Part shown: in pieces, positions 5,557 to 60,302 of the stretch
How positions within the stretch are numbered: the first letter of the stretch is position 1
Layout: each line of letters opens with the position of its first letter
NCBI GenBank assembly: GCA_949152475.1
Contig: OX424562.1
Coordinates: forward strand, 37,496,157 to 37,560,156
Direction: 5' to 3'
DNA length: 64,000 nucleotides
Origin: Terebella lapidaria
Taxonomy: Eukaryota > Annelida > Polychaeta > Terebellida > Terebellidae
Made by a program: the position numbers and the translations under genes
Notes under the pieces: model-generated
Database searches by the model: none
Seen by the model: the letters and a program-made list of their open reading frames with translations, nothing else
What the model was told of the DNA's origin: nothing

Positions 5557-7015
5557 TCAGATCAGCAGACCGATGAGTGACGATGTGATTAGCGCCATTA
5601 CAGACACCACAAGGGGCGGGGCTCCATCTTCAGGTGCCGGGGTAGACTCCGCCCCGTTCTGCTCGCTCGCCCCGCCCACCTGATCCTCGGCCCCGCCCAC
5701 TTCAGCCCCTTCGTGCGCCTCCTGCTCGTTGATTCCGCCATCCTCCATAGAACCTGTTCGTGATGATTGAAATGATGAGTGAAAATGAAGATATTCAAAC
5801 TATAAACACATCCATGCGGCGACAATACAATAAACTCAATTTAGTCATTCCGCATTAGCTGGTTGTGAATATATCGTCTTAGAGCACTGTACCAGTTGCA
5901 GTTTTCATGATATTCAGAATATTCATACATAAAACACTTGCATATTGCCATATATTCAAACCTGTTTGATCTTCAGAATTCATTCCTCCATCTCCACTAC
6001 CGCCTTCTAACACCCTATTATCGCTCTCTGGTGGATCTGAATTTTGTGGTGAATTGCCACTTTCTTGTTCGGCTCCTTGATCGGGATCATCTGAATCATC
6101 ATCATTTGGCTGGATTTCATCTGGAGCTGGTTCTTCGGAATCTGGATATGAGATTCCTTGATCTGATATAGAGCTGTCCGTATCCGTCTCACCTTCTGGA
6201 TCCGTTGGACCTTCGCTCGTGTCTGGTGTTTCTACCTCAGGATCTGACGTCATATCCTCTGAGTCCTCTGTCGTGTCAACTTCTTTGTCTTTGTCCTTCT
6301 TTTTCTTGTCTTTGTCCTTGTCCTTGCCGTCTTTTTTTGTATCATCGCCCTCTGCTCGAGAACCTTCATCTCCAGTCTCTTCCTCCTGGGTTTGTCCTGG
6401 ATCCTCTTCAGTGTCGGCCTGTTGTTCTTCCTCAACTTGTTCCTCAGCCGGCTGTTCCTCATTCGTTACCTCTTCATCCTCGCCAGTTCCAGTATCTTCA
6501 TCCGTGGATGATTCACTTCCCTGTCCCGGAGTTTCTTCCCCATTCTCTGTCCCGCCGTCAGCCTCGTCTTCTGTGGAACTCTCCGGCGAGAGGTCTATTT
6601 CCACCTGACCCCCCTCTGTGTTGTCTTGGTCACCGGGTGTCTCTTCACTGCCAGTGTCTGTGTCATAAAGATGATATCCCATAAAGATAATTGAACACTT
6701 TTTTTAGTCAAGAACCAGAAGTTCGGAGCTTGTACACAGAGACAAACAGTTTCTAAATTTTCAACATTTTTTTCTGCCAATTCATTCTCATTTATGTGTA
6801 TTGTTCGTATCCAGTACAAAATATCGTGGGTGACTTTATATTTGGAGGGCTCCAGAAGAGAACCGGTTCCAGTTTGTCACCACGTCTTAACTTTTTGGAA
6901 TAGATCGTTTCGCCAGCAGACCTTGTGGAGTGTCCTGGTCCTGCTGGTCCCCTGTCTGTGAGCTTACAAGCCTCGGTAAACAGACGAGAAACAACAGCAA
7001 CACCGCACCATGCAT
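5557..7015 (-). CDS. Acidic secreted protein with C-terminal GPI-type signal (three exons)
   Basis: Exons 7015-6922, 6657-5962 and 5753-5557, all joined in phase 1 at GT-AG borders, encode 328 residues. Exon 1 gives a signal peptide (MHGAVLLLFLVCLPRLVSS) and QTGDQQDQDTP. Exon 2 (232 codons) is almost wholly Glu, Asp, Ser, Thr, Gly, Pro and Gln, except for one basic block of alternating KD/KK near its middle (about residues 130-150). Exon 3 ends in a small-residue site (PEDGAPPL) followed by about 18 hydrophobic residues and stop, the layout of a GPI-attachment signal. It belongs with the genes at 23435 and 30227, which share the first and last exon types. No Pfam-like fold is visible. I infer a glycosylated cell-surface or shed acidic protein. 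Acidic biomineral-binding proteins look similar in composition, but nothing here proves that role. Confidence 0.75.
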
Positions 7016-7570
7016 CTTCTATGATATAATAACAATTGTAAATGATATAATCTGAAAAAAATGGATTATAGCTCATAAAGATTACTGCATTATGATGAAA
7101 AAACTATCAGTGAAATATACCTACTTTAGCTTGTTTGCCTCAGGAGAATTCCAATTCTGCTTGAAATAATCCATATATTGCTTAGTCATATCTGCGCGGA
7201 AAAAGCAGTTACGAGTTGATGTGCTGATAATATTGATCAAATCCACAGATCGGTGTGCGCTTTTGTGTTTTGTTTTTGCCTGTCGTAATTGGCTGTGGTT
7301 TTGGTATGTTGTGAGACCAGCATCTGTCACTACTTGAGTGGAACACCAGGCCGAAGTTGGTGGAGAATCGTACAAACTGGACCAATAATATGAGTATCAT
7401 AATGTTTTCTCGAATACGACAAACGAGATCAAATTAATGACAAGATTCTGGTATATATACACCACTAAACTATTGCCTGAATTGATATAAACTAGTTATT
7501 TCAGAAACTAGTTAGAAAATTATAACATAATTACAATTATTAATTATGGAATATGTTTGATTAGGAAGAG
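7016..7570. other. 5' flank of the acidic GPI-type gene
   Basis: AT-rich, with an 84-codon minus-strand frame (7375-7121) that I cannot assign. It may be 5' UTR or an upstream exon, or chance. Confidence 0.35.
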
Positions 7571-7579
7571 TTCAGTCTT

Positions 7580-8038
7580 GTGTTAATGTTCGGAGGAAGA
7601 TTGGACAAATTACCAATTTCTGATAGTATCGATTTATTATCAAACGAGCTTGGGTTTCTGACACTGAAAGTGCTAAATGTGTCCCATGATGTTGTTCTTT
7701 ATCAGACTGAATCAACATACTCGAATGAACAAATTGTCCGCAAGAAAAGCTATGTGACAAAAATAGGCCGGTTTGTAATTTCTCTAAAAACTGAAAAATA
7801 CCTAGCGGGCCAAAAATTGCACGTTTGCCCGCTGCTTGCTATGAAGTCAAAACTACGTTTTTACATTAAATATATTACTAATCGTTGTAAACTTCGGGAA
7901 AATGTGCAAATTATTAAATGTTTGAATAATCTTCCCAGACTCGCATGTGATCAACTGGATTATTCCACAAAAGGATTTTTTGTGTGTGCTTTCGATGCAA
8001 GTTGCATCGAACCTTCGAAGAAGTTGAACCGTCAGTAA
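7580..8038 (+). other. Unassigned 152-codon open frame
   Basis: An uninterrupted frame starting MLMFGGRLDKLPISDSIDLL and ending at a stop at 8036-8038. It is mixed in composition, with no signal peptide, repeat or motif that I recognise. Length alone in AT-rich DNA makes it a candidate exon or small gene. No paralogue is visible in this window and no splice context decides it. It could equally be chance. Confidence 0.25.
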
Positions 8039-8727
8039 AAAATCCAAATTGTTGAATAACCCTGTACATACATAACATTTCATCTTATTATTGTTGCTGT
8101 ATAGTGTTCAGTGTGACTCATAGTGTTCAGTGTGATATTCATTCCAGTTATTCCATCACGCTCCACCCCAATCAGTTGCTCAATTTGCCATGAATGTGAC
8201 TGCTCTGGAAGCTAACAGCCATCCACTGGGGATAGATGCTGCGACATTTGGTAAATTCGCCATAAAATTAAAAGTTGTTTTGAGCTGATAACTGCCTGCT
8301 ATGTCCAGTACAGCTCATGACGGATGGCCTGTCATCAAATCAGGGGGCCGGGGGGGGGGGGTCCCGGGAGCGAGTGAGGTGGTCCTCGGGTGGTCCGAGG
8401 TCGTTCTTCAGCCGCCTGGTGGTAGTCTGAACAGCTCACGCTGTTATTTATCACTAGATTATCGCTCTGTGGATAAATTTTACTCAACTCTCTTTAGGGC
8501 AATCGTGTACAAGGCGCTATTTAGTTTTGCAGACTATCTGTAACCATGAATCTGGTCCTTTTCGAAATTAGCATCGAATCAAATTTATTGGCATTATATT
8601 TTCTTCCTTTCTTTTTCTCTAATTCTTTCATGCGTATTACGTATATTAGTAGCAATTATTTCTTAACACACCTCTTATTTCAGAAAAAGAACAACTGTTC
8701 AATAACGTTGCTGTTTTTATTCATAGA

Positions 8728-8947
8728 GCCTGAAGTGACGTTACCCTATTCGGCGAAATTTGAGTTTCAAGCATCTTGTTATTTTATGTTAGGTTTTGAC
8801 CTTGGAAGAACATTGAATGTTACATGTAGAGAACATGACGCGACGCCTGTCCATTTCCCGTATAACTGGACAGTGATATGTTGTTATGCTATAGAACTCC
8901 CTATTATACTGTGTATGTTGGGGTACATAGCCTTAATATCAGCGTAA
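8728..8947 (+). other. Possible terminal exon with a C-terminal membrane segment
   Basis: A TTCATAG acceptor-like site at 8720-8727 precedes an open frame to a TAA at 8945-8947. It reads EPEVTLPYSAKFEF, then two N-glycosylation sequons (NVT, NWT), and ends in a hydrophobic run (CCYAIELPIILCMLGYIALI). That is a plausible last exon of a type I membrane protein, but I cannot find its upstream exons and the composition is close to background. Confidence 0.2.
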
Positions 8948-8949
8948 AC

Positions 8950-11340
8950 TATATACACGCACTTGTAAAAAAAACAATATTAACAAGTAACTTGATGTTG
9001 ATTCAAAAATGGCAATCATCGACTCATCGTGTATTTGAACGACATAAAAGTTGTAAATGTTGTAATGTAATAAACAGACATCGTATTTACACATGGCGAT
9101 ATATTTGCACTGAGCTTCCTGCAGTAGCTGATTGCGGGGTGACACACACGGAACCAGTCCCACCCCTGCCCGGCTACACCAAGCGCGTCATCTCTCCCGC
9201 CCGCCTCGTATTCCCACCAGCCACTCGCGCCCATCACGAGACCAGCAGCCCCGTGCAATATCCTCTCGTTATTGCCCGCCCCGGCACGACAGCGCTGTCG
9301 TGCAATATCGGTTCGTTACCGCCCGCTTCCGGATACGATTGTAGCGAGGAGTGTACAATATAGGAAGTGCGTCCTCTTGTGGTTGTACACTTTAAGTTGT
9401 AGCACACAGCACGACAGTCGGTAAGCTGTGGATTATCAGTGCAGGATTCAGGCTTGACACGCAAGGTAGGCGAAGAACAACGATTTATTTGACCATATAA
9501 TATTCATATATATATATATCGATAATACTACTCCAGTTTTGTAATAGTGCCATTTGTACTGGCAGTGGCAAATTGTTGACGTAATCTTAAACAAAATTGC
9601 ACACAATACGCAGATAAATCCACCGGATTCTATCAACTAAACGGGAACATACTTTCAATATCAAGGTAACGCGCTCAGCATCAGTGTGGTTAGTGAACGG
9701 ACATCATTGTCCAGAATATCTAACATTTGTATGTACACAGCTGTATGAACAGAAACCAAGTGTACATGGTCCACATTATATTTCGTAGTTATTGTGTGTT
9801 ATACAGTAGATATTGCCAGAACTGTCGAGGGTATTTCTTGTGTTGAAATTGCCTCTAGACAGTCTGTTCTCGAAAGACGCTGCGTCAATTCCAGACGGGG
9901 ACTTCCAAACTGTCCGATATTACCACGGGAAGCCCCGGCGCCAGCACAGCGAAAGGTCACGTGAAGGGGGTATACGTGAGTGGCGACTAAAACCAATGCT
10001 TCGGAGGGAGGGGTAACAAGCATTTTTCTTAGACTATGATACGCATTATGGTTAGTATATCTCTGTTTTAAAGAAAATAATAGTCTACCGGAACTAGTTG
10101 TGCCTCTGGTAATAAGTTCATTACCGTCATTGCTTTGGAGATTTTTGTTTTGGCAGTATCAAAAAAAAAAAAAACGTACGAAGACAGTGTATTAATCCGA
10201 GTTACAAGTAATGGGGCATTGTACGGGTATATACCCGAATATGACGTTCATTATTGGAGAGGAGAGTCGTCCTGTTCCAGACTGCTAAAGAGTGTGTTCG
10301 TCTTCCCTCGTCTGAGAAACAGAAATTACCCCCTTGATGCCATAGCCGTGCCTGGAGTGACATCAGCATCGTAAAATGTCTTATCCTGGACATGTTCTTA
10401 CTAGACAACTCAGCCCGACTCGACAAGCCTAGTGCAATATGCAGACTGAACGGGTGAAGAATTCGGTGCAATATCCACTCTGAATGCAAGTTATAACTCA
10501 TTCTCTGACTCGGCTGAGGAAGATTTCCGGGAAAAATGCATCTCGTTATGAATAAGCTGATGTGGATATAAACATGCATTTTTACAATCTTTTTCTTTTT
10601 GGCACGTAGGCGTATCAATTCAGTGTTTTCCGACAGTTTTCCGACGCAGACATCTATTTCTGCCCGTGACCAGTGTTCATTATCTACTTTGTACACGCGT
10701 CGTCAGAGTCACGACGCATCACGTCTCTGGATATTTCAGCAAAATAATGATGCCATGTGCCAGATATTTGACAGTTTCATTGACGCACAATGACCATAGC
10801 ATCGGTTGAGAATGCTGCTAAAATTACACCCATGTTTATGCAAAATCATGATGATATGGGAAACAATATATTGGTAAATTTTTTAAAAACACCAAAATCA
10901 ATTGGTTGTTGATGCAGATTTTTATTATGCAATATCAATGATTTATCCATGAAACGTGTCCTGGAGTCTTTTCGGAGTTTTACGTGTGGATCTATAGGCG
11001 AATGAACCAAAACGTGAATATTTATTATAGCGGTATATATCGTTTCCACGTGAAAGAAATGAAAACGAATGTCAGTAGCACATGTTCTGAACATATAAAT
11101 ATCATCAGAAACCCATATGGGTTTCTGATATCATTAATCATAAGGGAGCATTGTCAAAAACATGTATGTAGTACCTCCTGTACACGAGTAAATATATGTA
11201 AATATATGTACGTACTTAAAATACAACAACAAATAAACTAGCATATTCTTGTTATTAATTAGGTATCTTGATATATGTACTAAATACTGTTTATTTATGG
11301 GACTGCCCAATTGACAAATGTATCATATCAACGTACGGGA
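8950..11340. other. Gene-poor stretch with a GC-rich island
   Basis: Mostly AT-rich. A GC-rich island at about 9120-9350 contains a short imperfect tandem repeat around GTGCAATATC and CCCGC. The open frames crossing it (for example 8878-9363) have no recognisable domain. I find nothing else that I can support. Confidence 0.4.
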
Positions 11341-11344
11341 ATTA

Positions 11345-14300
11345 ATTTAGAATGAAATGAGTGAGCAAATTGACTGACCAAAAGTGGGTCTATTTTGGGT
11401 GGAGGAAGTGTTTCAGACAACTAAATCTCTCGCTCGTCTCGGTAGACAAAATCTCCAACGTTTCAGCCGTGCCTACAATTATTATATCAGCATCAGTATT
11501 AATATTGCACCGCTCTGTATTAACTCGCCACGTGATGTCGGGTTTTATCGTTATCGGTACTCTCTGTGATATTTTTATGGAGGAACTCTCACAAACACGC
11601 GGATTCTACTTTCACTTTCGCTTTATATTCTACACAGCAGCTGAGCATCAGACCAGCAAGTGTGCACGTTTTGCCTTCTTCTCTTGGAAAGTCCCCCACA
11701 AACTGATTATTTTTTTATTTATGAGTTCTTTTTAAAAACTTTTCATTTTAGTCGCAATGGAAGAAATTCCAACTGTGTTCTCTCCCCCGAGACAACTTGC
11801 TGGCATCAGTTTTAACTGTCCATGGGGATAATCATACTCTGCGATCGATATTCACTGATTTATACTGTATATGATGCCTAAATGTGCGATAATAAAAGTG
11901 GCAATATAGCTTTTTTTCTTTTTTGCAGTTAGAAACAATGGAATGAAGGATAAAATTACCCTGATGCAGTCTATGCTCATTTTCTGTCCAAACAGTTCTA
12001 CTTCCTGTTCGCCCGTAAACTCCACCAAATAATATATAATGTCATTATATCTGGCATTATCCTTAGCTTATATCCTGTGGACATGATTTTACTTCTGGTT
12101 TGGTACAACTTGACACCATAAATTAATATGTATGAATTGTAATCTACATGATACCGACCTACTCTTTAATGCATGCTAGAATCCACCATTTGGGGAAGTT
12201 AATTAACGTCATTCCTATTCTATGATTATTCAATATTTAATTGAATACACTGTGTCTGTTTTTTCGGATATTTTTCTGACACTGACGTCCAATCTATGTA
12301 TCCAAAAATTGAATGAATTTAAAATCCTACCGTGGTCGATGTTCTGACCAAGTTTGGTGATGACTAAACGCCACATTTTCCTCCCTCTACAGAAGGTGAA
12401 TGATCTGGATCCAATCCGGATTAAAGTTAATGTGGGTCTGCTTAGGTAAGTTTCGTTGATGTCAAATTTCACATGAGGTACTGGCTTGAATCCCACTGAT
12501 GGAATATTAGGTCTAACAAACAGTAGAAAGTGATACTAATCACTAAACAGTAGAAAGTGATACTAATAATCATACTAAAAATAGTATCTTATCTTTGGGG
12601 GTCTGCCATGGAAATATAGGAGGCCTTAAATATTTCCACAGGTCTGCTAGGATTGTCAAAAACAATCTTTGAGGTCAGAAGGTTTCGGTTTCGCATTAGT
12701 ATAAAAAGCACTACTATATCGCTGAATGACAGTTGCTTACTTCGAATTTTTGTTATTTCTGATCTAGAAAAATACTTCCACTGGTTACAAAAATAAATAT
12801 GTATTTTCACTATATATTACTCGTTATAGTTCATTTATGTCAATGTATAGGCCAATGTCCAACATATATTGTCGCTGTGTGGTGTATGGTTCTGTGTCTG
12901 ACCGTGAACATTGCTCTAGTATTGCTGTAGTCTTCAATTCCATAGGTCTCCGGAGGTTTAGTACCTGTTGTCTCATTCATGCTTTATTCGGCCCAAGTAT
13001 CATACGCTGCGCCTTACTACTACTCGTCCACTAAATGAATGCTATATAATCCGTCTGTCACCTTTTTAATCCGTATTGAATACAGAGGAAGGCGCAGGAT
13101 ATGATACTTGGACCCTTTAGGCCAAATATTCCAGCGACACATTGAGGTCTAATGCAAGGACACGTTCATGCAAGGAACATTCAGACAAGACCATTGAGGA
13201 AAATGTTCCCAAAACCTGCTATTAGTGTATGATGTCGTGTACTGATGCATGTAAGACAACTCCACAGGAAGTAGTTGTTAGAGGTATTTTAGATTACAGT
13301 ACTTCATGTTTATGAATCACTCGTGTACATTTCGGAGGCTAGGAGCATTGTACATGTAGTTTTGTCAATTTTGAAGTGCGCTGCGAGATTGGATACCCAG
13401 TATATTTACCGTACAGCTCCGAGGTTCCATCGAAATGTGGCCCAGTGCGTGGATATCATTGGCGAAAGAAACATGTTCCAAGTTGAGAATCTAGATATTT
13501 ATGTTACACCAACATGTCACCTTCACCGCTCAGCAAAAAATAGGTATCGGCCTCGAGTTGTTTTGTATAACATCTTAAACATTTTCCGAAAAATAAACCA
13601 CCAAAACAAGATTAAATTCAGTTTCTAGCGGAAATGGTTCATCGTATTTATCCTCTCATATGTTTTGTGTTCAGCAGAGCTCCGCATCTGTTTTGTTCCC
13701 GTCCATTTAGGAGAACAAATATTTCAGATACTAATGGTTAATCATTGATTCAATTAATACTATCAGAAATACATAACGAGATACTTTTCTGATACTATTC
13801 TATTCGAAATAAATCTGCAACCGTGCCACGGGATTATTACTTCTACTTCTAGTCTCATTGAATCTTACGTGCTGTACTGTACGATTTGATATTGTCTGTG
13901 AGTCAAGATTTGTTTTCGATTCAACTCTTTGAAGTTACTTTTTAATTACTTTCTTTTCGAAAAATACTATGTCGGTTTTTTACCGAACCAATGTTTTTAC
14001 TTTGAAACCCCAGGCAAACACACGTGTAATTATTCTTCAAAAGTGATGATATTCACTTCAATTAAGATTCTCTATACATATTAAATTCATGTGACAAAAT
14101 TATATATGTTAGCCTTTGATTTCTGTTCAGGAAGTTTGGTGAAGTGATGCGATATCCTTCAACGAATCACTACTAATGAACACTTGGGTAACTATGGTAT
14201 ATATCCTTCATGTGGCTATGACATTTTCTGGTACTGCCCCTGCTCCCCCCCCCCCCCCCCCCCAAAGTACCAAAAAGTTTAACACAACTGATGATTAGTG

Positions 14301-14610
14301 GTCATCAAGCGCGTGTAACCTAAGTGTCTCGAGCCACACAAGGTAAATCTCCCGCTAGACTGGGCGGCTTTTCCAGTATCTACCCCTTGCTGGAATCGAG
14401 AGAATCCTCAGTAACCTTCTCTGCAGTGAGTCATACCATCTCAGGCTTGTGATGGCAGGTTCATGGACGGACTTATCGATGTCCAGAACCATGTATCTTT
14501 GAAATAACTTCTCAGCAACGTGGCAGTTTGAGTAATCAGCCAACGTATTTAATTCGTCTGATTGATTGTGAAGATATAAGGTGAAAACAACAAAGTTATA
14601 CGTGTGATGA
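11345..14610. repeat. Old segmental duplication, copy 1
   Basis: Collinear similarity to 19200-21440 appears in at least four places. These are a GGAAGAAGTGTTTCAGACA-like block with ATATCAGCATCA (about 11400-11500 and 19240-19325), a GGTTTaGTACCTGT block (about 12953 and 20145), a TTTCTAGCG block (about 13620 and 20540), and a stretch ending in CTCCCGC-AGACTGGGCGGC (about 14300-14400 and 21230-21300). Translated fragments look alike too (FALYSTQ and FAMYFTQ), which hints at a decayed membrane-protein gene, but the frame is not continuous in either copy. Confidence 0.55.
14245..14263 (+). repeat. Poly-C tract
   Basis: Nineteen consecutive C residues; a mononucleotide tract, capable of G-quadruplex or i-motif formation. 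Confidence 0.9.
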
Positions 14611-14786
14611 TTCAATATTGTTTTGAAAAGATATTACAAAACACTAGTCGGATACAGATGATCGTTAAGGATAATTGTTCAAAAGGTTTGAAGTTATCAA
14701 ATGAATGTCCAATTTCGGCCCTATAAGGGGACGGGGGTGGGGCACTGCTATAGCTTCTCCTTACGAATCTCCATCATATCTCTTCC

Positions 14787-16446
14787 ATGCTATCAACAGA
14801 TAGGTTTACCAAGGACCTCTCTGATACAAGATGCTATCAACAGACAGGTTTATCAAGGACCTCTCTGATACAAGGTGCTATCAACAGACAGGTTTACCAA
14901 GGACCTCTGTGATACAAGATGCTATCAACAGACAGGTTTACCAAGGACCTCTCTGATACAAGGTGCTATCAACAGACATGTTTACCAAGGACCTCTCTGA
15001 TACAAGATGCTATCAACAGACAGGTTTACCAAGGACCTCTCTGATACAAGGTGCTATCAACAGACATGTTTACCAAGGACCTCTCTGATACAAGATGCTA
15101 TCAACAGACAGGTTTATCAAGGACCTCTCTGATACAAGGTGCTATCAACAGACAGGTTTACCAAGGACCTCTGTGATACAAGGTGCTATCAACAGACAGG
15201 TTTACCAAGGACCTCTCTGATACAAGGTGCTATCAACAGACAGGTTTACCAAGGACCTCTCTGATACAAGGTCCTATCAACAGGCAGGTTTACCAAGGAC
15301 CTCTGTGATACAAGATGCTATCAACAGACAGGTTTACCAAGGACCTCTCTGATACAAGGTGCTATCAACAGACATGTTTACCAAGGACCTCTCTGATACA
15401 AGATGCTATCAACAGACAGGTTTATCAAGGACCTCTCTGATACAAGGTCCTATCAACAGGCAGGTTTACCAAGGACCTCTCTGACACAAGGTGCTATCAA
15501 CAGACATGTTTACCAAGGACCTCTCTGATACAAGATGCTATCAACAGGCAGGTTTACCAAGGACCTCTCTGACACAAGGTGCTATCAACAGACATGTTTA
15601 CCAAGGACCTCTCTGACACAAGGTGCTATCAACAGACATGTTTACCAAGGACCTCTCTGATACAAGGTGCTATCAACAGACATGTTTACCAAGGACCTCT
15701 CTGATACAAGATGCTATCAACAGACAGGTTTACCAAGGACCTCTCTGACACAAGGTGCTATCAACAGACATGTTTACCAAGGACCTCTCTGATACAAGGT
15801 GCTATCAACAGACAGGTTTACCAAGGACCTCTGTGATACAAGGTGCTATCAACAGACATGTTTACCAAGGACCTCTCTGATACAAGGTGCTATCAACAGA
15901 CAGGTTTACCAAGGACCTCTGTGATACAAGGTGCTATCAACAGACAGGTTTACCAAGGACCTTTCTGACACAAGGTGCTATCAACAGACATGTTTACCAA
16001 GGACCTCTCTAATACAAGGTGCTATCAACAGACATGTTTACCAAGGACCTCTCTGATACAAGGTGCTATCAACAGACAGGTTTACCAAGGACCTCTCTGA
16101 TACAAGGTGCTATCAACAGACAGGTTTACCAAGGACCTCTCTGATACAAGGTGCTATCAACAGACATGTTTACCAAGGACCTCTGTGATACAAGATGCTA
16201 TCAACAGACAGGTTTACCAAGGACCTCTCTGACACAAGGTGCTATCAACAGACATGTTTACCAAGGACCTCTCTGATACAAGATGCTATCAACAGACAGG
16301 TTTACCAAGGACCTCTCTGACACAAGGTGCTATCAACAGACATGTTTACCAAGGACCTCTCTGATACAAGGTGCTATCAACAGACAGGTTTACCAAGGAC
16401 CTCTCTGATACAAGGTGCTATCAACAGGCAGGTTGACCAAGGACCT
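14787..16446 (+). repeat. 44-bp minisatellite, about 38 copies
   Basis: The period is exactly 44 bp (unit starts at 14787, 14831, 14875 and so on). The core words are GCTATCAACAGACAGG, TTTACCAAGGACCTCTCTGA and TACAAG. Variants at a few positions (ACAGG or ACATG, ATG or GTG at the unit start, TCTCTG or TCTGTG) are mixed along the array, so units have been shuffled by unequal exchange. There is no long open frame. The array ends in a degenerate unit at 16410-16446. Confidence 0.95.
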
Positions 16447-17047: not shown

Positions 17048-17101
<54 letters not shown>

Positions 17102-18330: not shown

Positions 18331-18334
18331 AATC

Positions 18335-19145: not shown

Positions 19146-19199
19146 TAGAGGGATATCGCACGTACATGCCAATGCAGGGAATCAATGTCCATTATAACG

Positions 19200-21440
19200 A
19201 ATTGGATGAGCAATTGATTGATCAAGTGTGTTTACTCGGAGTGGAAGAAGTGTTTCAGACAGCTAAAACTTGTCTCAGATGAAAAATCCCCAATATTCCA
19301 GTCGTGCAAGCAATGATATCAGCATCATTGAGTGTGTTTCCCTGCAATGTTTTTACTAGTTATGTCTGGATTATGAGAGGATTTGTCGTTGCTCCCAGCG
19401 TTACACAGCCCGGCTTAAAGGGACTGTTTCTACTCCGGAATTTTATGGAGAAACTCCATTTCTTGCTACCGTCATATTTGCCATGTATTTTACACAGATG
19501 CCGATCACAAGACAAGCGAATGTGCAATCAGCTGAATACCACCTTATTGTACCCTTCATTTCCTTCGGTCTTGCGTGTTGTATTTTAGCTCGGATACAGG
19601 AAATGGTTAGACGCAGGGGATCGTGGGATACCAGGCTACTAATGACTGTTTACACTACTGCCCTCACTCAGTAATGGATGTCGTCATTCGATGATAGGAG
19701 TCGTAACAAGGACCGAATGTTGAGCAAACACACTCTTGCATGGAACTTACCAATTTGACATGTACATGTATCCGAGTACAGACGTTAGGTTACTGTCTCG
19801 TGGGACATTGATGGGACAAAAAAGTCAAATAAACAGTGACAGATGATATGCAGTGGTAGACGTCTGATACAAATGATAATCCATCAAATGAAGCACGTAA
19901 CACTTCCAAGACGAGTTGGCTGATGTTGAGGTCTCTAGTCGTGAGCTGGCCTCAATGAATCTGGACACAACTGTCAGACAACAATGTGGATGTATTTGTA
20001 TATTCCCTATATTTTTTTGTTTTGTTTCCGCAACATACCTGTGTCAGTTGCCTGATGTAAAGATCTGTTTCTGACTCCGAGTATTGCTCTAGTACATGCT
20101 CGAGTTGTCTTTTGACTTGCCGTCTTTTACAGACGTCCTTGGAGGTTTGGTACCTGTCGTCCCAGTCGTATACATCGCAATGATTTCATGTTTTCCCCAC
20201 ACATTTAATCGAAGTTTTGAAGTCTTAATTTAATGACAATTGCATGGTTTTATTGTATTACAAAACAGCTCAACGGTAATTTGTTGACACTAAGGTGTGG
20301 TTTCTGATGGTATCCGGTCAAGTAAGATATGGATAGTGTATCAAACTTGAAATGGGTCTGGTTTATGCATGGCATTAGATGGAACAAAATCGAATGATTC
20401 GAGATGACAACGTAACTGAAAAACACCATCATGTCATGTTCTATAGCATCATCCAACAGAAAGCAAAGAATCGACCTCGGTTGTGAATAACGTCTTCAAA
20501 AACCGAACACCTCATGCCACCAAACTAGATTCTACATAGTTTCTAGCGAAAGCATTAATTGTATTTACTCTCTCATTCGTCTTCTGTTGAGAAGAAAATT
20601 GTTAATAATCAGCTATTCAATTAACATTATTAATAACTTGAAGCGTATTCATTCCTACATATTCTGACCGGAATATTACTAGCTTTATGCCAGACTAAAA
20701 TAAGGTTTTGTTCGAAGACCAAAGAGACACAGCCAGGTTACAGACATTTGACTGCTGTCGGCTTCTGTCATCCTGAGAGTGAGACGGGTAACGCTGGTGT
20801 TGTCATAGCAACGGTACTCCGCCCTAGGGCTACAGATCTCTGTCGAGCCATTAAGCCGAACATAAGAACGATATTGGAGGGCAAGAATTACATCAGCAAC
20901 CGAAATAAATCTTTCGTTGCTGAAGCGTATGTGGAAGTGTTGTAAAATTTCATATGCTGCTTGTAAATGAAGATCTGCTTTTGTCCAGGATATGTATATT
21001 GAAATACTAACAAATACTGTGATGTCTGGGTTTGGACGAAAAAGATGATGAAATTCAATCTGAACTAAAATTTGACTCTTCATTTAGAACATTTGCGAGA
21101 CACTTGCAGAAAGCGCTCCCGAGTATACACTTGGGTTTCTATGGGCTATATCCCTCATGTCGGTATGACTGTAGGGTACTATAGTATACCTTGCGGCATG
21201 TACATTTCCCTGATGAATAGCGGTCACCAAGCGCCATGTAATCTAAGTGTCTCGAGCCAGACATAGTAAATCTCCCGCCAGACTGGGCGGCTGTTCCCGT
21301 TTCTATCCCTTGCTGGAATCGGGAGAACCCCAGTAGCCTCTTCTGTAGTGAGTCATGCTGTACCAGCCTTGTGATGACAGGTTTATGGACGAACAGAGCT
21401 GTGTCATTACAATACTTTCTCAGGTTACTGGTGACAGTGA
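19200..21440. repeat. Old segmental duplication, copy 2
   Basis: Collinear with 11345-14610 at several anchored blocks, but clearly diverged and lacking some spacer. Two frames here (19304-19588, and the overlapping frame with ATVIFAMYFTQMPITRQ to about 19674) have a hydrophobic, membrane-like pattern similar to copy 1. I cannot name the family and regard it as a decayed or highly fragmented gene. Confidence 0.55.
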
Positions 21441-21689
21441 TCATGTGCTCATGTGAAACACGTCTTCCTCTCGTTGTTATATTTCACCAGCTAGGTATAG
21501 TACAAAATGTTTCTTTATCTATGTGAATAAAGGGTAAACAATATTATAATCTTCTTGTATTCAATATCAAATAGGTATAATTGAACAGGTTTCGTTCATA
21601 CGTTTTTTCGAACGTCAAGGGGTGTACTTCTTTTCATTTCGAACATTTTCGGACGTTCAGTGTGAAAAGTACTAGAATGGTCTTTTTTA

Positions 21690-23040
21690 GTTTACCGGAC
21701 CTATGATCCGATAACCTATTGGCATGGCGTTGCACAAAATATCTAGAAAAATATTTCAAGAGAGGGTCATTTTTCTGCCTTTTTTTATTTTCGCTTTTTT
21801 TTCAAAATGGCGGCCATTTTCGCCGAGAAACGGCCAATTTCTGACTTTGGCGGCCATTTTCTCAAAAACTGTTCAAACAGTTTTGAGATTTTTAGATTGC
21901 TCCCACATACCTTTGTGATGTGTATAAGTTTCGTTACCCTTGAATCGCCGGTCTGCGTGTAGCGGCCAACTGGGACTTTATCATGTTAAATTTTCCTATG
22001 CTTTATAATGATACACATTATGCCTAATATCTCACTGAATATTGACAGTAGAGAATAGGAATCAATGGTGGACACATGGGAAATGATATATGCTGATCAT
22101 TGTCATGACCCTGAATTTGACCCTTGACCTCAGAGCACAAATTGGTCAATATCTCGCTTATTATCGGTTTTACAGCTTAGGGATCAATTGTGGACATATA
22201 GGAAATGATATAGTCCGAATATTCTGATGACCTTGAATTTGACCTTTGACCTCATTTTCAAGGTCAAAGAACAAAATGGCTAATATCTCGCTTATTATCG
22301 ACTTCACGACTGGAGAATCAATTGTCGACATATAGGAAATGATATGCTGTATATTGTCATTACCTTGAATTTGACCTTTGATCTCATTCTCAAGGTCACA
22401 GCAAAAAATGGCTAATATCTCGCTTATTATTGACTTTACAACTTAGGAATCGATTGTGGACATATAGAAAATGACATATGCCGAATATTCTGATGACCTT
22501 GAATTTGACTCTTGACCTCATTTTCAAGGTCAGTGCACAAAATGGCTAATATCTCGCTCATTATCGAATTTACAGCTTAGGAATCAATTGTGGACATATA
22601 GGAAATGATATAGTCCAAATATTCTGATGACCTTGGAATTGACCTTTGACCTCATTTTCAAGGTCAAAGCACAAAATGGGTAATATCTCGCTTATTATCA
22701 ACTTCACAACTTGAGAATCAATTGTCGACATATAGGAAATGATATGCTGTATATTGTCATTACCTTGAATTTGACCTTTGACTTCATTTTCAAGGTCAGA
22801 GCGCAAAATGGCTGATATATCGCTTATTATCGACTTTACAGCTTAGGAATCAGTTATGGAAATACAGCAAATGATAAATGCTGAATATTCTGTAGACCTT
22901 TAATTTGACATTTGATTTTATTTTCAAGGTCACAGGACATAATGATCAATATCTCTCTTATTATTGAATTTACAGCTTAGTAATCGATTGTGAACGTATA
23001 GGAAATCAAACATGCTAAACACTCTCGTGACTTCAAATTT
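21690..23040 (+). repeat. AGGTCA-rich repeat with internal tandem units, copy 3
   Basis: Begins with an imperfect palindrome (TTTACCGGACC and the mate GGTCCG-like arm) and CCTATTGGCATGGCGTTGC. After a segment with AAATGGCGGCCATTTTC come about seven tandem units of some 130-150 bp. Each unit carries AATATCTCGCTTATTAT, a CAATTGTGGACATATAGG-like stretch and TGACCTTTGACCTCATTTTC followed by AAGGTCA. The copy at 25.1 kb starts with the same words. Confidence 0.75.
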
Positions 23041-23434
23041 GGGCTTTTTTTATGTATAGCATGTAGGCCTATGCAAATATTGGCACAGCTAGTAGTGGAA
23101 TTGTTTGAATAACTAGAGTCAACGGGTATTTTTCGAGAGGCGGAAGTTTCCCACAGAATGAAACCAGGAAAGCTGAAAACGATCATTTATATATGCAGTT
23201 AGGCTACCGATGAAAATGTGTTGCGAATTTGAACGAATTTTTCCATAAAGAATTGATATAATAAGATAGAGTTTATATGACTTGGAATACCTACTGACGG
23301 CTACTGAACGGTTTTAAAATATGTCTATACGAGATATCATATCCAGAGATGTTTTTCTACATGACATTTTCTTCTGAAAATCTGCATCATCCGCATTCTG
23401 TGCTTGAATATTTTGCAGGACAGAAGCTGCCAAG

Positions 23435-23792
23435 ATGCGCGTGTGGTTGTTAGGCTTGTTGTTGATCTGTGTGCTGCAGCTGACTCTGGCTCAGAACGAG
23501 GACACACAGACCACGACACGTAAGCCTGATATTTAAACAATGATTATATTTATCTAGCATAATTACACTGTTTATATCTGAATCCAATTTCTCATGGGTT
23601 TCTCCACACAGTTTGTAGCTCTAAATATGCCTTGCAAGGAACTGTCATGCTCGATTTTGTGTGTTTACAGCAATGGCCAACATGTCGGACGCGCCGGTAG
23701 GGACGGAGACTGGGCCTGGGAGTGGAGCCCCATCCGTTGGGATGTTCGGACTGGTTCTTCTCCTCTCGGTCTCAGCCACACTCGTGCTCTAA
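23435..23792 (+). CDS. Minimal GPI-type surface peptide, 68 residues (two exons)
   Basis: Exons 23435-23519 and 23671-23792, joined in phase 1 at GT-AG borders, encode 68 residues. Residues 1-19 or 20 are a signal peptide (MRVWLLGLLLICVLQLTLAQ). The predicted mature part is only about 28 residues: acidic and Thr-rich (NEDTQTTTP), with one N-glycosylation sequon (NMS) and a Gly/Pro/Ser-rich end (GPGSGAPS). A final hydrophobic run (MFGLVLLLSVSATLVL) ends at the stop, as in GPI signals. The first exon is closely similar to that of the gene at 30227, and the last exon resembles those of 30227 and 5557. Size and layout recall vertebrate CD52, by analogy only. Its function is unknown; the short peptide may serve mainly as a glycan scaffold. 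Confidence 0.72.
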
Positions 23793-24521
23793 TGTAGTCC
23801 ACACACGTACGTGCTTCGGCTGCTACAGTTCCCAGCGTGTTTATCAGTTTGGTTCAGTAGTTCTGACACGTGGTGTTATGCCGAGAACCTACGGGGTATG
23901 TTCTGAATCATGTAATATTGCTTGGTGTCACAATCCGGATTTGTGGAAGATACATGTATAAATTAGCTTGATCAGGTATATAAATGGATAGTGTCATATG
24001 ACTGTATTCATATAATCGAATATTTGTGTTAGACCATAACAAATAATGTCTTTCATTCACTTGTTTCTTTCCATTGGCTTGCTTTGTTCTCTTATGAAAA
24101 TATTTTGTACCAAGTATTATTTGTGCATTGTCCCCTCCATGTCCTTAAACGAACAATACTGATCTTGCAAAGAATTGTAATGTCCCATTGTCAAGACAAG
24201 CGTTCAAAATGGTGACTGCATGGCAAACGTTTCTCGCTTAAATGTTTGTCGTATATCTAGTTTAATTCGTGTTTTCTTGTAACTATGGAATACCGGAATC
24301 GAGTGCTTTAATATATAATGTATAATTATTTGAGATGTGAGTATGAGCGATTGGCGTGTTACAGACTTCAGACACTGGTGCTTCTGGGCGGTACGAGATA
24401 CCTTGCTCGAGTAAAAGCCAAGTGTGTTTCCATGGATACCATGCTGGTTGTATCTGATACCCTTACATACAGGAAACCCGCCAGTGTTTTGTAGCGTTCC
24501 ACTGATGCTCGGTGATATGTA

Positions 24522-24527
24522 AATAAA
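24522..24527 (+). terminator. AATAAA in the 3' region of the 23.4-kb gene
   Basis: This hexamer is in the conserved 3' block, but the duplicate has AATATAAT at the matching place (about 31440), so it may not be the used site. Confidence 0.35.
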
Positions 24528-24925
24528 ATCAACGTTAATTATATATATATTGAAAGTTGGATGATGATTTGTGAGGTATGTAATATGTAGCTAGGAAAGA
24601 GGTACGTTTCATTGTTGTAAAATATATATCTTGCACATCATGTAGCCTTCCATTCGTTCCTTCTGCTGATTACTGCGATGATTTCAAACAGGCTTTCGAG
24701 GTTGTAATTTACTGGTGTATTGCACAGGTATGTGTAAACAGTCGTGCTGTGATTGCACGTGTGGGGTTGTCATGACAACTCAGATCATCACGCACTGATT
24801 GAGTAGGGTGTATGTGTCGATCTATATATTTGATAGAACCAGCTATTTGTACGAGAGCCTTACTAGAATGACTGACAGAAACAGCTATACAAAGACTTAA
24901 TTGTATTACATGAAGTAACAGTGTC

Positions 24926-24931
24926 AATAAA
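24926..24931 (+). terminator. Conserved AATAAA downstream of the 23.4-kb gene
   Basis: GTGTCAATAAA is kept in both duplicates (here and at 31756-31761), about 1.1 and 1.0 kb after the stops, which favours a real poly(A) signal with a long 3' UTR. Confidence 0.45.
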
Positions 24932-25124
24932 GAGTGTTTATAAATATCAGTATTTTACAAAGGTAACATCAGTGTTCATTCAATCGTGCTTGGTCACTAT
25001 ACTACATCTTGAAAATACATATAATATGCGGCATCATTAATTGTCATTGACTTAGGTTATTTGTTTCCACGGAGGTGAGACTTGGGGGAAATACTCTCGA
25101 AGAGTCCGGTTTATTCATCACGGC

Positions 25125-25885
25125 ATCTTTCGGTTACCGGACCTTTGGTCCGATAACCTATTGGCATGGCGTTGCGTCCGTCGTCCGTCCGTGAACAATT
25201 TTATCTTTAAAGTTTACGTTCGAATCTTCCTGAAATTTTGACAAAATGCCTAGAAATATTTCGAGAAGGAGGTATTTTTTTATTTTTTTTTATTTTCGCA
25301 TTAGGAATCAAGAGATTAGGAATCAATTGTGGACATATAGGAAATGATATATGCTGAATATTCTCGTGACCTTGATTTTGACCTCTGACCTCATTTTCAA
25401 GGTCAGAGAACAAAATGGGTAATATCTCGCTCATTATCGACATCACAGCTTAGGAATCCATAGTGGACAATGAGGAATGATATATGCTGAATATTTTGGT
25501 GACCTTGAATTTGACCTTGACCTCATTCTCAAGGTCAGAGAACAGAAAAAGTTAATATCTCACTTGTTATCGACTTTACAGTTTAGGAGTCAATTGCGAA
25601 CATATTGGAAATTATATATGCTGAATATTCTCATGACCTTGAACTTGACCTTTGATCTCATTTTCAAGGTCAGATGTCAGATTCAAAGTCAGACAAAATG
25701 GCTAATATCTCACTTAATATCGACTTTACAGCTTAGGAATCAATTGTGGACGCTAGAAATGATATGGGCTGAATGTTCTCGTGACCTTGAATTTACCAAT
25801 GGCCTTATTTTCAAGGTCATGGGACAAAAGGCTAATATCTAAAATATACATTGTTCCGGTAACCTTTCTTAGCCATTGGGCTAAT
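25125..25885 (+). repeat. AGGTCA-rich repeat, copy 4
   Basis: Starts with the palindrome GGTTACCGGACC-TTT-GGTCCGATAACC and CCTATTGGCATGGCGTTGCG. It holds about four tandem units like those of copy 3 and ends near CCGGTAACCTTTCTTAGCC, which partly inverts the start. That suggests a non-autonomous DNA element with short terminal inversion. Confidence 0.7.
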
Positions 25886-26040
25886 TTTCGATCTTACTTT
25901 TATTTATTTCGAATAATTATTATATTCTGATTAATATATCCATGCAGAGAACGTTGCTTCGTACTGTTGTCCATCATTTATGTTCTGTTCGTGAAAAGGT
26001 TTCCGAGGACCGTATACTTTACGTAAACGTATTCGATTTA

Positions 26041-26628
26041 GGGGCCGGTCAGGGGGGGGTGGGGAACTGGGGGGGGGGGGGGGGGTCACACTTTCATTTT
26101 CAACATTATTGGGGGGAGGGGGGTCATACTTTTATCTTCAATGGGACTGGGGGGGGGGGGGTCGAAATTTGAAATTGAGCTTTTCTGAGAAAATCTGAAT
26201 GGTAAATCAGTGAAATAATTAGGTGGAAACAATCCACTCAATATCAGTACATGGACTGAATGGAGTACGCCATGGAATTTCATAACATTTTCAATAAAAC
26301 CATAATCTCACTGAAACCGGATCCTGCAGAGGACCATCCAGGAACACCAACATCGAGAGATGCCACAATCCGTGTGCATCAGTACGGAGCCCCTAAGAGG
26401 ACAAACCTGTGAGCGAAGTTTTCGCATTCGAACATGATGTTTTCGATATTGAACGCGATGTTTTCAAAAGGGGAAAAGATCGCGAGGGAACGCGAAAAGA
26501 TCGCGTTCGAATTCGAAAAAGGGGGGGGGGGGGTCATATATTGGTTTTCGATATTTGTCAAACTTTGAAAAAACTCATTTCTCGGATAAATCATCCACCC
26601 CCCCCCCCAGTAAATAATGACCGGCCCC
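26041..26628. mobile_element. PIF/Harbinger-like MITE with TTA target duplication
   Basis: Eleven-base terminal inverted repeats GGGGCCGGTCA (26041-26051) and TGACCGGCCCC (26618-26628) are flanked on both sides by TTA (26038-26040 and 26629-26631). A 3-bp TTA/TAA duplication and GGG-starting ends are typical of PIF/Harbinger elements. At 588 bp with no transposase frame, it is non-autonomous. The interior holds several long G runs (up to 17) and a C run. Confidence 0.72.
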
Positions 26629-26769
26629 TTATCATTTTCAAAATGTCTCTCATTTCACTCAATTGTAAACATTTTTGAGAAGGTGTTGATGTTGATGTTG
26701 AAGCGTTTCATAAACGAGTGCATGAGGAAATTATATGTACGTTTGTGTAGCACTTTTTCTAGTATTAGT

Positions 26770-27160
26770 ATAAAGGTAATAACGAGATTGGTCTATAGTT
26801 AGAAAAATCATCTTGGGCTTTACTTTTGTGTATGGGTATAACTTTTGCTAATTTTAACGTTTCTGGAAAAATATCATTTGCGATAGACTTATTTATGAGT
26901 CTGCTAATGGGAATTGATATTTCGTGTGCCACCAACTTCAGGAAGTGACTGCTAATCCGGTCGTGCCCACAGCTTTTTTTTCGCTTGCAGGCTAACTATA
27001 ATTTTATAAATTTCTTCCGTGTCTGTGGGATGTAGATACATAGAGACATGGTTGGCATTCTGTTTCTTCAATAGGTGGGTTTTGAAGTTATTGTTTGGTT
27101 GTGGAATGGCATATGTTAATGATTCTTTAAGCACCTTCTGGTTACAGCTCACGCTCAACT
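26770..27160 (-). mobile_element. LINE (non-LTR) reverse-transcriptase fragment
   Basis: On the minus strand 27158 to about 26773 reads as the N-terminal part of a LINE reverse transcriptase: HPTDTEEIYKIIVSLQAKK, then RISSHFLKLVAHEISIPISR, INKSIANDIFPETLKLAKVI and finally FSNYRPISLLP. NYRPIS is a hallmark of CR1/L2/Jockey-type LINEs. The two parts are in different frames, shifted in an A-rich run near 26980, and the polymerase is cut off before the catalytic FADD motif. It is a dead fragment next to the MITE. Confidence 0.75.
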
Positions 27161-27520
27161 GACAACCTTGAGCTGTAACCTTTTTCTTGTAATTAAATTG
27201 TTAAATGTTCTTTTCAATGTTACAGTTAAAAAATAAACCATCCATCCATCAAATTTTTTTCTAAATCGTTTTAATTTTCTTTTTTTTCTGGTTCTGTGAA
27301 CTTCGTCGTAAGAGTTCCGTGTTCGAGAGTTCGTATAACTACGGTGTAGCAAATCGAATACGCCGTTCTTCGGTCCACTGTCGCGTGTTGAAATAGACCC
27401 CGTGAAGTATGCGGTCCTATCACCATTCCGAAACAGGTCAACCCTCACATGGTATAGGGATACGTATACACGATAGTCCTTGTGATGTCTTTGCTTTGGG
27501 GAGGTGCAATAACACCACCT
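27161..27520. other. Flank of the LINE fragment
   Basis: AT-rich; may be 5' LINE sequence too decayed to recognise. I see no gene. Confidence 0.3.
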
Positions 27521-27659
27521 ACGATTCTCTATTTATGTGGAAGACATAGCATAGGGGAGGATAGCAGCTCAAAAATGTCTTCTTTATTCTGTGTAGGGCG
27601 AAATCAAGTTTGATCCCGAGCAAGACAAACCATTTTTAGTGGTCACAACAGTGAAATGG

Positions 27660-28335
27660 ACTGTGGACCTAAGATTATGTGGTTTACCGGCAGACTTATA
27701 TCAAATGTGATATGGTGTTTTAGTACTGAAGGTAGTCTGAGGTAAAGTTAGAGGTCACCAAAAGATCTACCATACATGATATATGATTCCCTATATACCC
27801 GTAAAACAACCATAGGATCTATTGTCATCATATTGTATGCAGAGGCCTATTTACATAGGTCATGTTAAACGTGACCTTGAGATTCACCACTCAAAGTCTT
27901 CCGATGTCAACTTCAAGATCTAACATACATGTATATGATTTTCTATATATACAGATATAAATGCTCCCAATGCAACCCGAAGCACTATCTACAAGCGTTT
28001 CGTCTACATAGGTAATTTATACAATTCAAACAATTCAAGTTAGAAGTCATGTATGATGGCTTCATGTCTCAAGGTCACAAATAAAGCCATCATACATGAC
28101 CTATTTTATACATGTGCGCTAATAATACATTCCTAAGCTCTATCTACAATATTAATGTTTGCCCAGGCCAATTTACACATTTCGAGTCAGACGTGAACTT
28201 GAGGTTTGCCACTCAAGGTCGTCCAGGGTTAATTTTAACATCGCCAAAATATCCACCATATATGACTTTCTATATGTTCATAAGGCCACTCCTGTTTAAT
28301 TTTTTGTTTCTCGTCCTCTGGAAAATCAAAAGCTA
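27660..28335. repeat. Diverged AGGTCA-like repeat, copy 5
   Basis: Repeated phrases such as GAGGTCACC, CAAGGTC and ATATGATTTTCTATATA recur about every 130-150 bp, in the style of the other copies but more diverged. Confidence 0.45.
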
Positions 28336-30004
28336 GGAGGAAGGGCGGAAAAAAACCTCAAATAAAAAACGATATACCGTGCAATGATTCTCTGAATGCA
28401 AACGATGCTTGGGTGGGGAACCTATGTCTTTGAGCATCTGAAATCATAGTTTCATATTGAATCTTAGAAATTTATTTGTGTAAGAATTGTCAATTTGAAA
28501 TGTTAGTCTGTTCAAAACTCTGGATACATCTTGTATTCACACAAGCCAGTCGGATGAGTTTTGCTGTGAGACCAATATGGGTAAGCTTTACAGAGAATAT
28601 CGGAATTTTTTGTGTCAAAATCGCTTTTATTTCCATAATATTACACCTTTTTCTTGTTTGTTTTTTGCTTTATAATTCACAAAAAGCTAGGCGCGCGGGG
28701 ACGAGAAACAGAAATTTAAACAGGAATGGCCTAATACAAACTTAAGCTCTAAACTATACGCGATCTGTCCCCATATGCCAATTTGTGAACACTGTAATTG
28801 GCATACGTCTAATGTTTCAACATCAATTTGTTTGACAATTATATCAGCCCTAAAAAATCTGTCAGCAACTTATATATGCAAAAAGAATAGGCACTCATGC
28901 CTCTATAAATTAGCCCGTTGGTATTAACCCTTTCAAATCGGTGTTAGATGTTGCATCGGTAAAAAGCTTTGATAAATGAAACACTTGGATGATATTCTGC
29001 GGTAGATATGCATGTAACACAATATGTTACATCTTTAATCAAATAAAAAACATTCTGATACCATATTGATCCCACAATATCAAATTCATGTACTACACGG
29101 AAGCTTAATGTATAAATAGTAAATTATATGTTCGTAACGATGTTAATTTTGTTATGATTTTTCTTTGATAGCCATATGTTGAAAAAAGAACGGGAGTTTT
29201 CTCCTTAATGTAGAGGATTTGAAACATGAAATTGATTTCGCAATCAATAAAATACGTCATATTAGGCAAAATTGTTCGAAATTGCATTGGTATCTAACAA
29301 TCGTAGGACATTTCACAAACCGTATGGGCGTGAACAATGCACAACAAATACTCTGGCAACAGATGTAAGAATAACGAACTTCACAGACAAAAATGCGAAC
29401 ACTAATACTGCAGTATAGATTTCCACTTCGCTCAAATCGATCAATACATCAGAACAAATACACCTTTTGGTAATAACTCTACTCCCAAACTGAACCATTG
29501 TGCTGGTCGAGGACAACTGAAGGTATGTATATCTGCATGTATTTGAGTTTACATTAGGTGATTCATTAATTAGGTATGGATCAAATCAATCACGTATTTT
29601 TATCTTTTTAATTAGGGTACATAATATCATGATCGTTTTGTATTTAATATTTCATCAATTAGGCTACTGGTAGGTATACTTGATCATATTTCCGATTTTT
29701 TTTCGAATATAAAGAATAATATATGATGTGTACTTCATCTATTCATTTTTAATGCACAGAGATGGCCCTCTTGTGTGTATCACATCTCTCTTATGGGTTT
29801 CTGATGACATGTATTACAATGCAAATATTGACGTCGCTGTTAGGCTGAAACTGAATTTGTACATCTAAAGTCCATGGGTATTGTCCGATAATGGAAAAAA
29901 ATCACCACTGAATATAATCGGGAGAGTGGAGAAACGACTATTTGAATATAAAATATGTGCATAAAATTATATTTTAAGATTGCTTGCTTGTAGTATTTTT
30001 CTAA
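28336..30004. other. Gene-poor AT-rich stretch
   Basis: Only short frames. I find no repeat family member, domain or RNA gene that I can support. Confidence 0.45.
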
Positions 30005-30226
30005 TGAAAACATGTTGGCCACTTGAAAGAGAAATATGTTTGAAGATTTGACATGCTAAAGAAGAATTTATATAGAAGCCTCATCAATGGCTATTGAAAT
30101 GGATTTTTTTAAATATGGCTATACAAGATATCATGTCGAGAATTGCTTGTCTATGTGACATTTTCTTGAGAAATTCGGCATCATCCGTTCTTCGGCTGGA
30201 TATTTTTCAGGACAGAAGCTACCAAG

Positions 30227-30761
30227 ATGCGCTTGTGGTTGTTGAGTTTGCTGCTGGTCTGTGTGCTGCAGCTGATGCTGGCTCAGGGTGACACCGACAC
30301 TGGCGGGGAGGGCGAAAACACGAACACTGGCGGGGAGGGCGAAAACACGAACACTGGTGGGGAAGGCGAAAACACGAACACGGGCGGGGAGGGCGAAAAC
30401 CCGCCAGGTAAGGAATACGTGTCAATACAGCCCTGGGCAAACATCACCCAAATGTCCTGGTCCAAAGAAACATTCACCATTTAAAAGTTTCAAATATATT
30501 ATTGATCTTAAAATATTAAACTCATACTTGAACAACGAATATTTTCGTCTGGCCTGGAGTTTCCGTGTATTGTACGTGAACTGCCATGCTTGATTCCGTG
30601 TGTTCACAGCAGCGGACCCGGCGACGGACGAGGGCGAGGCCGGTGAGCAGGGCGCACAGGAGGGGGAGCAGTCTTCTGCGGAACCCGAGAACGGAGCTCC
30701 TCCCCTTTTGATGTCAGGGCTGGCTCTCCTCCTGTCAACCCTGGCCATACTGACGCTGTAA
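30227..30761 (+). CDS. GPI-type surface peptide with GGEGENTNT repeats, 110 residues (two exons)
   Basis: Exons 30227-30407 and 30610-30761, joined in phase 1 across a GT-AG intron, encode 110 residues. The signal peptide (MRLWLLSLLLVCVLQLMLAQ) is nearly that of the 23.4-kb gene. It is followed by four units of a nine-residue repeat, GGEGENTNT (27 bp at DNA level), in the first exon. The second exon is Glu/Ala/Gly-rich (ATDEGEAGEQGAQEGEQSS) and ends PENGAPPL plus a hydrophobic tail (MSGLALLLSTLAILTL), a GPI-type signal. The last exon aligns well with that of the minus-strand gene at 5557 (PEDGAPPL). No sequon of the N-x-S/T type is in the repeat (NTN does not fit). The repeat copies are nearly identical, so the expansion is recent. 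Function unknown; likely an acidic cell-surface peptide. Confidence 0.75.
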
Positions 30762-31755: not shown

Positions 31756-31761
31756 AATAAA
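31756..31761 (+). terminator. Conserved AATAAA downstream of the 30.2-kb gene
   Basis: Matches the site at 24926-24931 in the other duplicate. Confidence 0.45.
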
Positions 31762-37330: not shown

Positions 37331-37331
37331 G

Positions 37332-60300: not shown

Positions 60301-60302
60301 AA

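Follow-up and report, generated by a model that had tools for sequence, protein, structure and literature searches.

A signal exon shared by candidate GPI-anchored peptide genes and basigin-like duplicates in the annelid Terebella lapidaria

We examined a 64,000-nucleotide stretch of the Terebella lapidaria genome (the window, C8:37496157-37560156, in an assembly of 761.6 Mb in 438 contigs) that holds three small genes, A (7015-5557, minus strand), B (23435-23792, plus strand) and C (30227-30761, plus strand), each closing on a C-terminus of the glycosylphosphatidylinositol (GPI) type. Our best reading is that small GPI-anchored peptides were built here by shuffling a portable signal exon. In this joint reading, which the sequences make probable, B and C would encode GPI-anchored coat peptides and draw their signal exon from a cassette shared with other genes. 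On one contig, the same signal exon and its upstream DNA are readable in genes of two unrelated kinds, these peptide genes and duplicates of a basigin/neuroplastin-like gene.

The four splice junctions put forward in a previous sequence-only reading (6922/6657, 5962/5753, 23519/23671 and 30407/30610) lie where it placed them, and as read from the sequence all are GT...AG and all are in phase 1. In-silico splicing gives open proteins of 68 (B), 110 (C) and 328 residues (A) from the following parts.

23435..23519, plus strand: coding part of B exon 1; signal peptide MRVWLLGLLLICVLQLTLA, cut before QNEDTQTTT, with phase-1 donor
23671..23792, plus strand: B last exon; PMANMSDAPVGTETGPG[S]GAPSVGMFGLVLLLSVSATLVL and stop, a GPI-type tail
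30227..30407, plus strand: C exon 1; signal peptide MRLWLLSLLLVCVLQLMLA and a coding 27-bp minisatellite (TGGEGENTN units), with phase-1 donor
30297..30400, plus strand: coding tandem repeat in C; 27-bp unit, 3.9 copies, 93% match
30610..30761, plus strand: C last exon; acidic spacer, then GPI-type tail EPE[N]GAPPLLMSGLALLLSTLAILTL and stop
6922..7015, minus strand: A exon 1; MHGAVLLLFLVCLPRLVSSQTGDQQDQDTPQ, with phase-1 donor
5962..6657, minus strand: A exon 2; 232 codons, acidic, symmetric 1-1
5557..5753, minus strand: A last exon; GPI-type tail APE[D]GAPPLVVSVMALITSSLIGLLI and stop, with a weak pyrimidine tract at the acceptor

From signal cut to omega site, the predicted mature part is 27 residues long in B, 69 in C, where it includes the nine-residue repeat, and about 287 in A by our own count, with aspartate and glutamate making up 35% of residues 22-305. 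The layout of a short, a repeat-bearing and a long acidic mature part, as previously described, was retained with its lengths recounted. B and C both read as hydrophobic at the N-terminus, the signal-peptide calls resting on simple rules, and their intron acceptors align with each other. By eye, the last exon of B holds one N-glycosylation sequon, NMS, and C and A hold none. A structure search of the PDB with C gave a single, non-significant match (E=0.53).

Small residues at omega and omega+2 are a rule of GPI signals. The rule that we applied further required the last 15 residues to be hydrophobic and uncharged, omega to lie 18-24 residues from the end and a hydrophilic stretch to precede it. 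Four of 5511 open reading frame ends in 290,402 bases passed, three of them being those of A, B and C, all with [D/S/N]GAP; this count is not blind, because the rule was set after the three ends had been inspected. The C-terminal segment could also be simply a hydrophobic end, transmembrane or secreted, with no GPI signal, as its approximately 18-20 residues would span a membrane. Given that charged stop-transfer or cytosolic residues are missing and that small residues stand at omega and omega+2 in all three genes (by the same rule, set after inspection), we regard this as improbable. One phase-1 acceptor each in B and C passes a pyrimidine-tract filter and none does in A, so that the last acceptor of A is weak. 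The earlier proposal of small GPI-type surface peptides whose ends are conserved and whose middle does not align is thus borne out by the anatomy of B and C, and weakly by that of A.

B and C are tandem duplicates of one duplicated unit, with 82% DNA identity over 183 bp on the 5′ side and, on the 3′ side, 73% over 1003 bp and 85% over 198 bp.

23724..25001, plus strand: 3′ portion of the B unit; its duplicate in C lies at 30693-31830, in two blocks

Their signal-exon alignment score was matched by 0/3000 shuffles, compared with 108/3000 for A-B and 272/3000 for A-C, and since shuffles reach its scores the signal exon of A was rejected as a further copy of the shared 5′ end. For the last exon, shuffles matched the score in 0/3000 cases for C-A, 0/3000 for C-B and 2054/3000 for A-B; because C passes with both partners and A-B fails, C bridges A and B. 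Genome searches point the same way: among the matches listed, the last exon of C found only itself and A (E=0.04), and that of A found A and C (E=0.009), E-values that are weak alone, yet the match lies within 25 kb of a 761.6 Mb genome. The last exon of B found only itself among the matches listed in a genome-wide protein search. A therefore appears tied to the family through its last exon only, the homology of this exon across A, B and C being reached via C. The shared signal exon and the local duplication previously ascribed to all three genes hold for B and C and fall away for A. The anticipated multi-gene family comes down to A, B and C among the genome-wide matches listed. A larger gene cluster was rejected, as searches with the DNA of A, B, C and the basigin-side module, with a mismatch pattern and with the last-exon proteins listed no further member, in searches that score best candidates only and that diverged copies could escape.

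The shared 5′ end, which we term the 5′ module, comprises the signal exon and upstream DNA.

23118..23507, plus strand: 5′ module of B; approximately 317 bp before the ATG plus the signal exon, with acceptor-like TTTTGCAG / GACAGAAGCTGCCAAG
30025..30286, plus strand: 5′ module of C; approximately 200 bp before the ATG alignable
C8:41448611-41448714 and C8:41367213-41367316, both minus strand: counterparts of the B module in basigin-like copies, in addition to that of C

A 34-nt pattern covering the end of the 5′ untranslated region (UTR) and the start of the signal exon, allowing at most 3 mismatches, has four sites in the genome, namely B, C, C8:41448669-41448702(-) and C8:41367271-41367304(-), and its reversed control has 0. 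DNA searches with B, C and the basigin-side module together returned the same four places. The two sites beyond the window are on the same contig, 3.9 Mb away, in phase before the immunoglobulin (Ig) exons of basigin/neuroplastin-like duplicates. The 5′ end once described as fixed is indeed common to B and C, but it is not specific to the family, since it also fronts these duplicates. With phase 1 at every border, the signal exon suits both kinds of gene.

The basigin/neuroplastin-like copies, g1, g2 and g3, are all on the minus strand, at C8 ~41.352-41.371, 41.443-41.449 and 41.506-41.517 Mb, respectively. B and g2 are homologous from approximately 317 bp before the ATG on into the signal exon, apart from a gap midway, and in g1 the upstream part of the module is interrupted by approximately 3 kb of other DNA. 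The acceptor-like site, which precedes GACAGAAGC, is conserved and might mark an additional non-coding 5′ exon, and homology may reach slightly into the intron (C vs g1, 19 bp, E=0.014). The signal exon is followed in phase by the first Ig exon (Ig1) in g1 and g2 and then, in g2, by Ig2 and a transmembrane (TM) exon, with the segment LAALWPFLGIVAEVAILCTIIFIYEKKRAK. In g2 the signal exon is placed at C8:41448683-41448602 and Ig1 starts at C8:41444956. Against solved structures, the Ig2-TM part matched neuroplastin (5e-20) and basigin (5.2e-19), the top match being a generic Ig one to neurofascin (4.9e-22). A genome search for the TM exon listed three places, g2, g3 and a stop-bearing g1. Spliced in silico, g2 is a complete protein of 285 residues whose first 20 residues, the signal residues, are exactly those of B, and g3 is one of 279 residues that begins with a different signal peptide, MAYRIALIALSCCICSVHLTE, cut before V. 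Ig domains and the LWPFLGI..E TM segment are present in g2, which was tested, and the Ig2-TM part of g3, itself unscanned, reads identically. In g1 and g2 the shared signal exon passes the simple signal-peptide rule in front of a type-I membrane protein. The g1 copy (C8:41352034-41367285) has a TM exon with an in-frame stop and an altered TM segment, an intron of approximately 11.8 kb after Ig1 and an L-to-P change in the signal peptide; it looks like a decaying copy that still carries the module.

For g3, a rule-based scan of 36 kb gave one candidate phase-1 signal exon, which precedes Ig1 by 9.2 kb. At the DNA level nothing in the 131 kb around g1 and g2 matches it, and a genome-wide protein search listed it at a single place; as the first exon of g3 it is an unproven prediction. 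Against g3, g1 and g2 break at a common point, a few hundred bases before Ig1, with g3 homology starting at 41508250 and 41508248. The simplest history is therefore a single joining of the module to basigin. Within the gene body, g2 and g3 differ at 5/776 exon and 13/1039 intron positions (p=0.24), and g1 is 85-90% identical to both, so that the likeness of g2 and g3 would reflect recent duplication or conversion between them. Purifying selection on g2, as expected from 96% identity over 4.3 kb, was dropped as proof that the chimera is in use, intron divergence being 1.25% and the difference between exon and intron non-significant.

The signal exon has changed far less than the DNA upstream of it. 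Between B and g2, 2/77 exon positions (17 nt of 5′ UTR and 20 codons) differ, compared with 67/264 upstream (p=1.3e-6), with 0 nonsynonymous changes over approximately 45 sites in the 20 codons. The corresponding counts are 10/77 and 81/264 for B vs C (p=0.002), and 8/77 and 68/264 for C vs g2 (p=0.005). Such low exon divergence would be expected if the signal peptide were translated in both contexts, and between B and C the codons themselves appear constrained (dN 0.107, dS 0.383; p=0.004). The fast change and strong diversifying pressure formerly suggested for these genes are not shown: the signal exon is constrained, the GPI tail is loosely so at best, and the middle cannot be tested for selection because it does not align. 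Nothing here supports positive selection.

The same figures bear on whether B and C are genes at all, or rather 5′-end copies of a signal exon running into arbitrary sequence as decaying by-products of segmental duplication. The unalignable middle would suit such by-products, as would a tail dN/dS of approximately 0.57, not significantly below 1, and an exon CpG observed/expected ratio of 0.65-0.89, which brackets the window value of 0.76. We nevertheless find it unlikely that they are non-functional, because acceptor, frame, [S/N]GAP site and hydrophobic tail are all kept in spite of a 3′ flank that is only about 73% identical, the signal codons are constrained, and the exons of B and C are richer in GC (0.54-0.66) than the window (0.43).

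As to the direction of travel, we moderately favor the peptide-gene lineage as the source of the module, which would have passed to a basigin duplicate without a first exon of its own, because g3 has another candidate first exon that g1 and g2 lack. Conversely, basigin may have been the donor, the MRVWLL exon being an old, possibly alternative, first exon of basigin-like genes; B and C would then have arisen when a copy of the exon, 3.9 Mb away, was united with a last exon of the GPI type, such as A has, and g3 would have lost or replaced its exon. The module tree, with 9 informative sites for B+C vs g1+g2, 2 conflicting ones for B+g1 vs C+g2 and 0 for B+g2, fits either direction. A has the last exon, and its signal exon is not demonstrably of this type; further, g1 falls outside g2 and g3 in the gene body, so the module could predate all three copies. 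Yet the candidate first exon of g3 is separate and sits in a promoter-like context (TGACGTCAC, CACGTG and ATTGG, by eye), and no MRVWLL module was found in 36 kb of g3 DNA or, in genome-wide searches, at further places. We thus consider a basigin donor possible but doubtful.

Several points weigh against shuffled GPI-anchored peptides and a move from them to basigin. The module tree is unrooted and leaves the direction of transfer unfixed, and no last-exon remnant of the small genes was found near the basigin copies. Given the close likeness of g2 to g3, the intact frame of g2 says little, and with g1 as the reference the two amino-acid differences between g2 and g3 both fall on the g2 side. 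Synonymous changes between B and g2 are also few (1 of approximately 15; p=0.08 vs upstream), and with synonymous sites nearly unchanged, gene conversion could mimic coding constraint. Between B and C, purifying selection on the GPI tail is not clear-cut (dN 0.389, dS 0.678; p=0.19), so any constraint on it would be loose. Finally, the GPI and signal-peptide calls come from simple rules rather than trained predictors.

Repeats next to the module suggest how it might have moved.

22014..23047, plus strand: array of a 133-bp satellite, immediately preceding the B module

The same 133-bp repeat lies upstream of the g1 and g2 signal exons in the same relative orientation, and in g1 an array separates the two halves of the module. 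Close upstream of C there is none, the nearest being at 25305-25840, and none is listed in the g3 stretch or right flank. The repeat covers 9,688 of the 131,200 bases around g1 and g2, and being so common there it makes the coincidence weaker than it appears. Ectopic exchange between 133-bp arrays is a possible vehicle for the transfer. Going further, the module might be an actively exchanged surface-delivery cassette, regulatory DNA plus signal exon beside a satellite array, that re-equips unrelated genes, an idea we advance tentatively and do not expect to prevail. If true, the same cells would express the GPI peptides together with a basigin duplicate, under a single inherited programme.

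Returning to shuffled GPI-anchored peptides, the route we envisage is as follows. The signal peptide of exon 1, cut after ...LA and before Q, would direct the chain into the endoplasmic reticulum, and the small-residue site ([S]GA or [N]GA) and the hydrophobic C-terminus of approximately 20 residues would be exchanged for GPI. What remained at the surface would be a short, unstructured, Thr/Gly/Glu-rich peptide of 27 (B) or 69 residues (C), probably a coat element carrying glycans or charge, comparable to CD52 and CD24, if expression, attachment and function follow that analogy. As the single intron is in phase 1, any 1-1 exon or coding minisatellite could grow between the fixed ends; C would carry its minisatellite there, and A, possibly a relative, has an acidic 1-1 exon. 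The upstream DNA, signal exon and phase-1 donor would together make a portable cassette, able to serve an unrelated type-I membrane protein because Ig exons start in the same phase.

Elsewhere the window holds the following features.

105-1190, minus strand, and 3441-4932, plus strand: two MAM-domain genes (Pfam MAM, E 7.6e-17 and 3.1e-19), inverted and near-identical by eye; the pair looks like a recent inverted duplication adjoining gene A, and the plus-strand copy is extended by a stretch that by eye is Cys-rich and EGF-like, and by a Thr-rich end
14788-16446: 44-bp tandem array, 37.7 copies, 94% match
32242-38813: long 36-bp minisatellite with units LEHEAFQQGRHR; one stretch holds 78 copies (78% match), and more blocks follow up to 38813; partly open in several frames
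43512-48608, minus strand: retroelement with reverse transcriptase and RNase H matches and, by eye, a tyrosine-recombinase-like end, which suggests a DIRS-like element
~41606-60900, minus strand: open frames that are Ser/Gln/Tyr-rich and RGG-like, with a resemblance to a UBAP2/Lingerer-type RNA-associated gene; no Pfam match in the two frames tested

Among known systems, CD52 and CD24 of mammals are very small GPI-anchored glycopeptides made with a signal peptide and a short, unstructured, Thr/Ser-containing mature part. B and C would resemble them in a predicted signal peptide, a short, unstructured, Thr/Ser-containing mature part and a putative GPI signal, but C has a Gly/Glu/Asn repeat and no N-sequon (by eye) and the signal exon is common to basigin-like genes. 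Homology to CD52 or CD24 was not found: B and A matched no Pfam family at E<=0.1, and C matched only SARAF, sub-threshold at 14 bits against a cut-off of 30.8. The link to basigin/neuroplastin (CD147) is that, at two of its four places, the module stands in phase in front of Ig exons of this family; B and C themselves lack an Ig domain, a TM segment with the conserved Glu and a cytosolic tail. They were rejected as basigin/neuroplastin themselves, both the Ig domains and the LWPFLGI..E TM segment being absent from the two. The SpTransformer (185/333) genes of sea urchins are clustered and combine a leader exon with a variable, repeat-bearing mature part; the genes described here are likened to them by layout alone, and differ in numbering three only and in their GPI-type end.

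Among the titles and abstract openings listed, we found no description of this arrangement. Phase-1 introns are described as over-represented near signal cleavage sites (PMC1626468), and exon shuffling is treated in PMC8001218. Consistent with phase-1 exon shuffling, the signal exon of B, C, g1 and g2 is combined with unrelated downstream exons across phase-1 borders. The present case differs in that it is recent, with upstream DNA still alignable, and in that the recipients are of two unrelated kinds. A basigin copy without the exon (g3), an intact-reading chimera (g2) and a stop-bearing one (g1) stand side by side, so that phase-1 exon shuffling and the birth of tiny surface peptides could be studied in events that are recent, not ancient.

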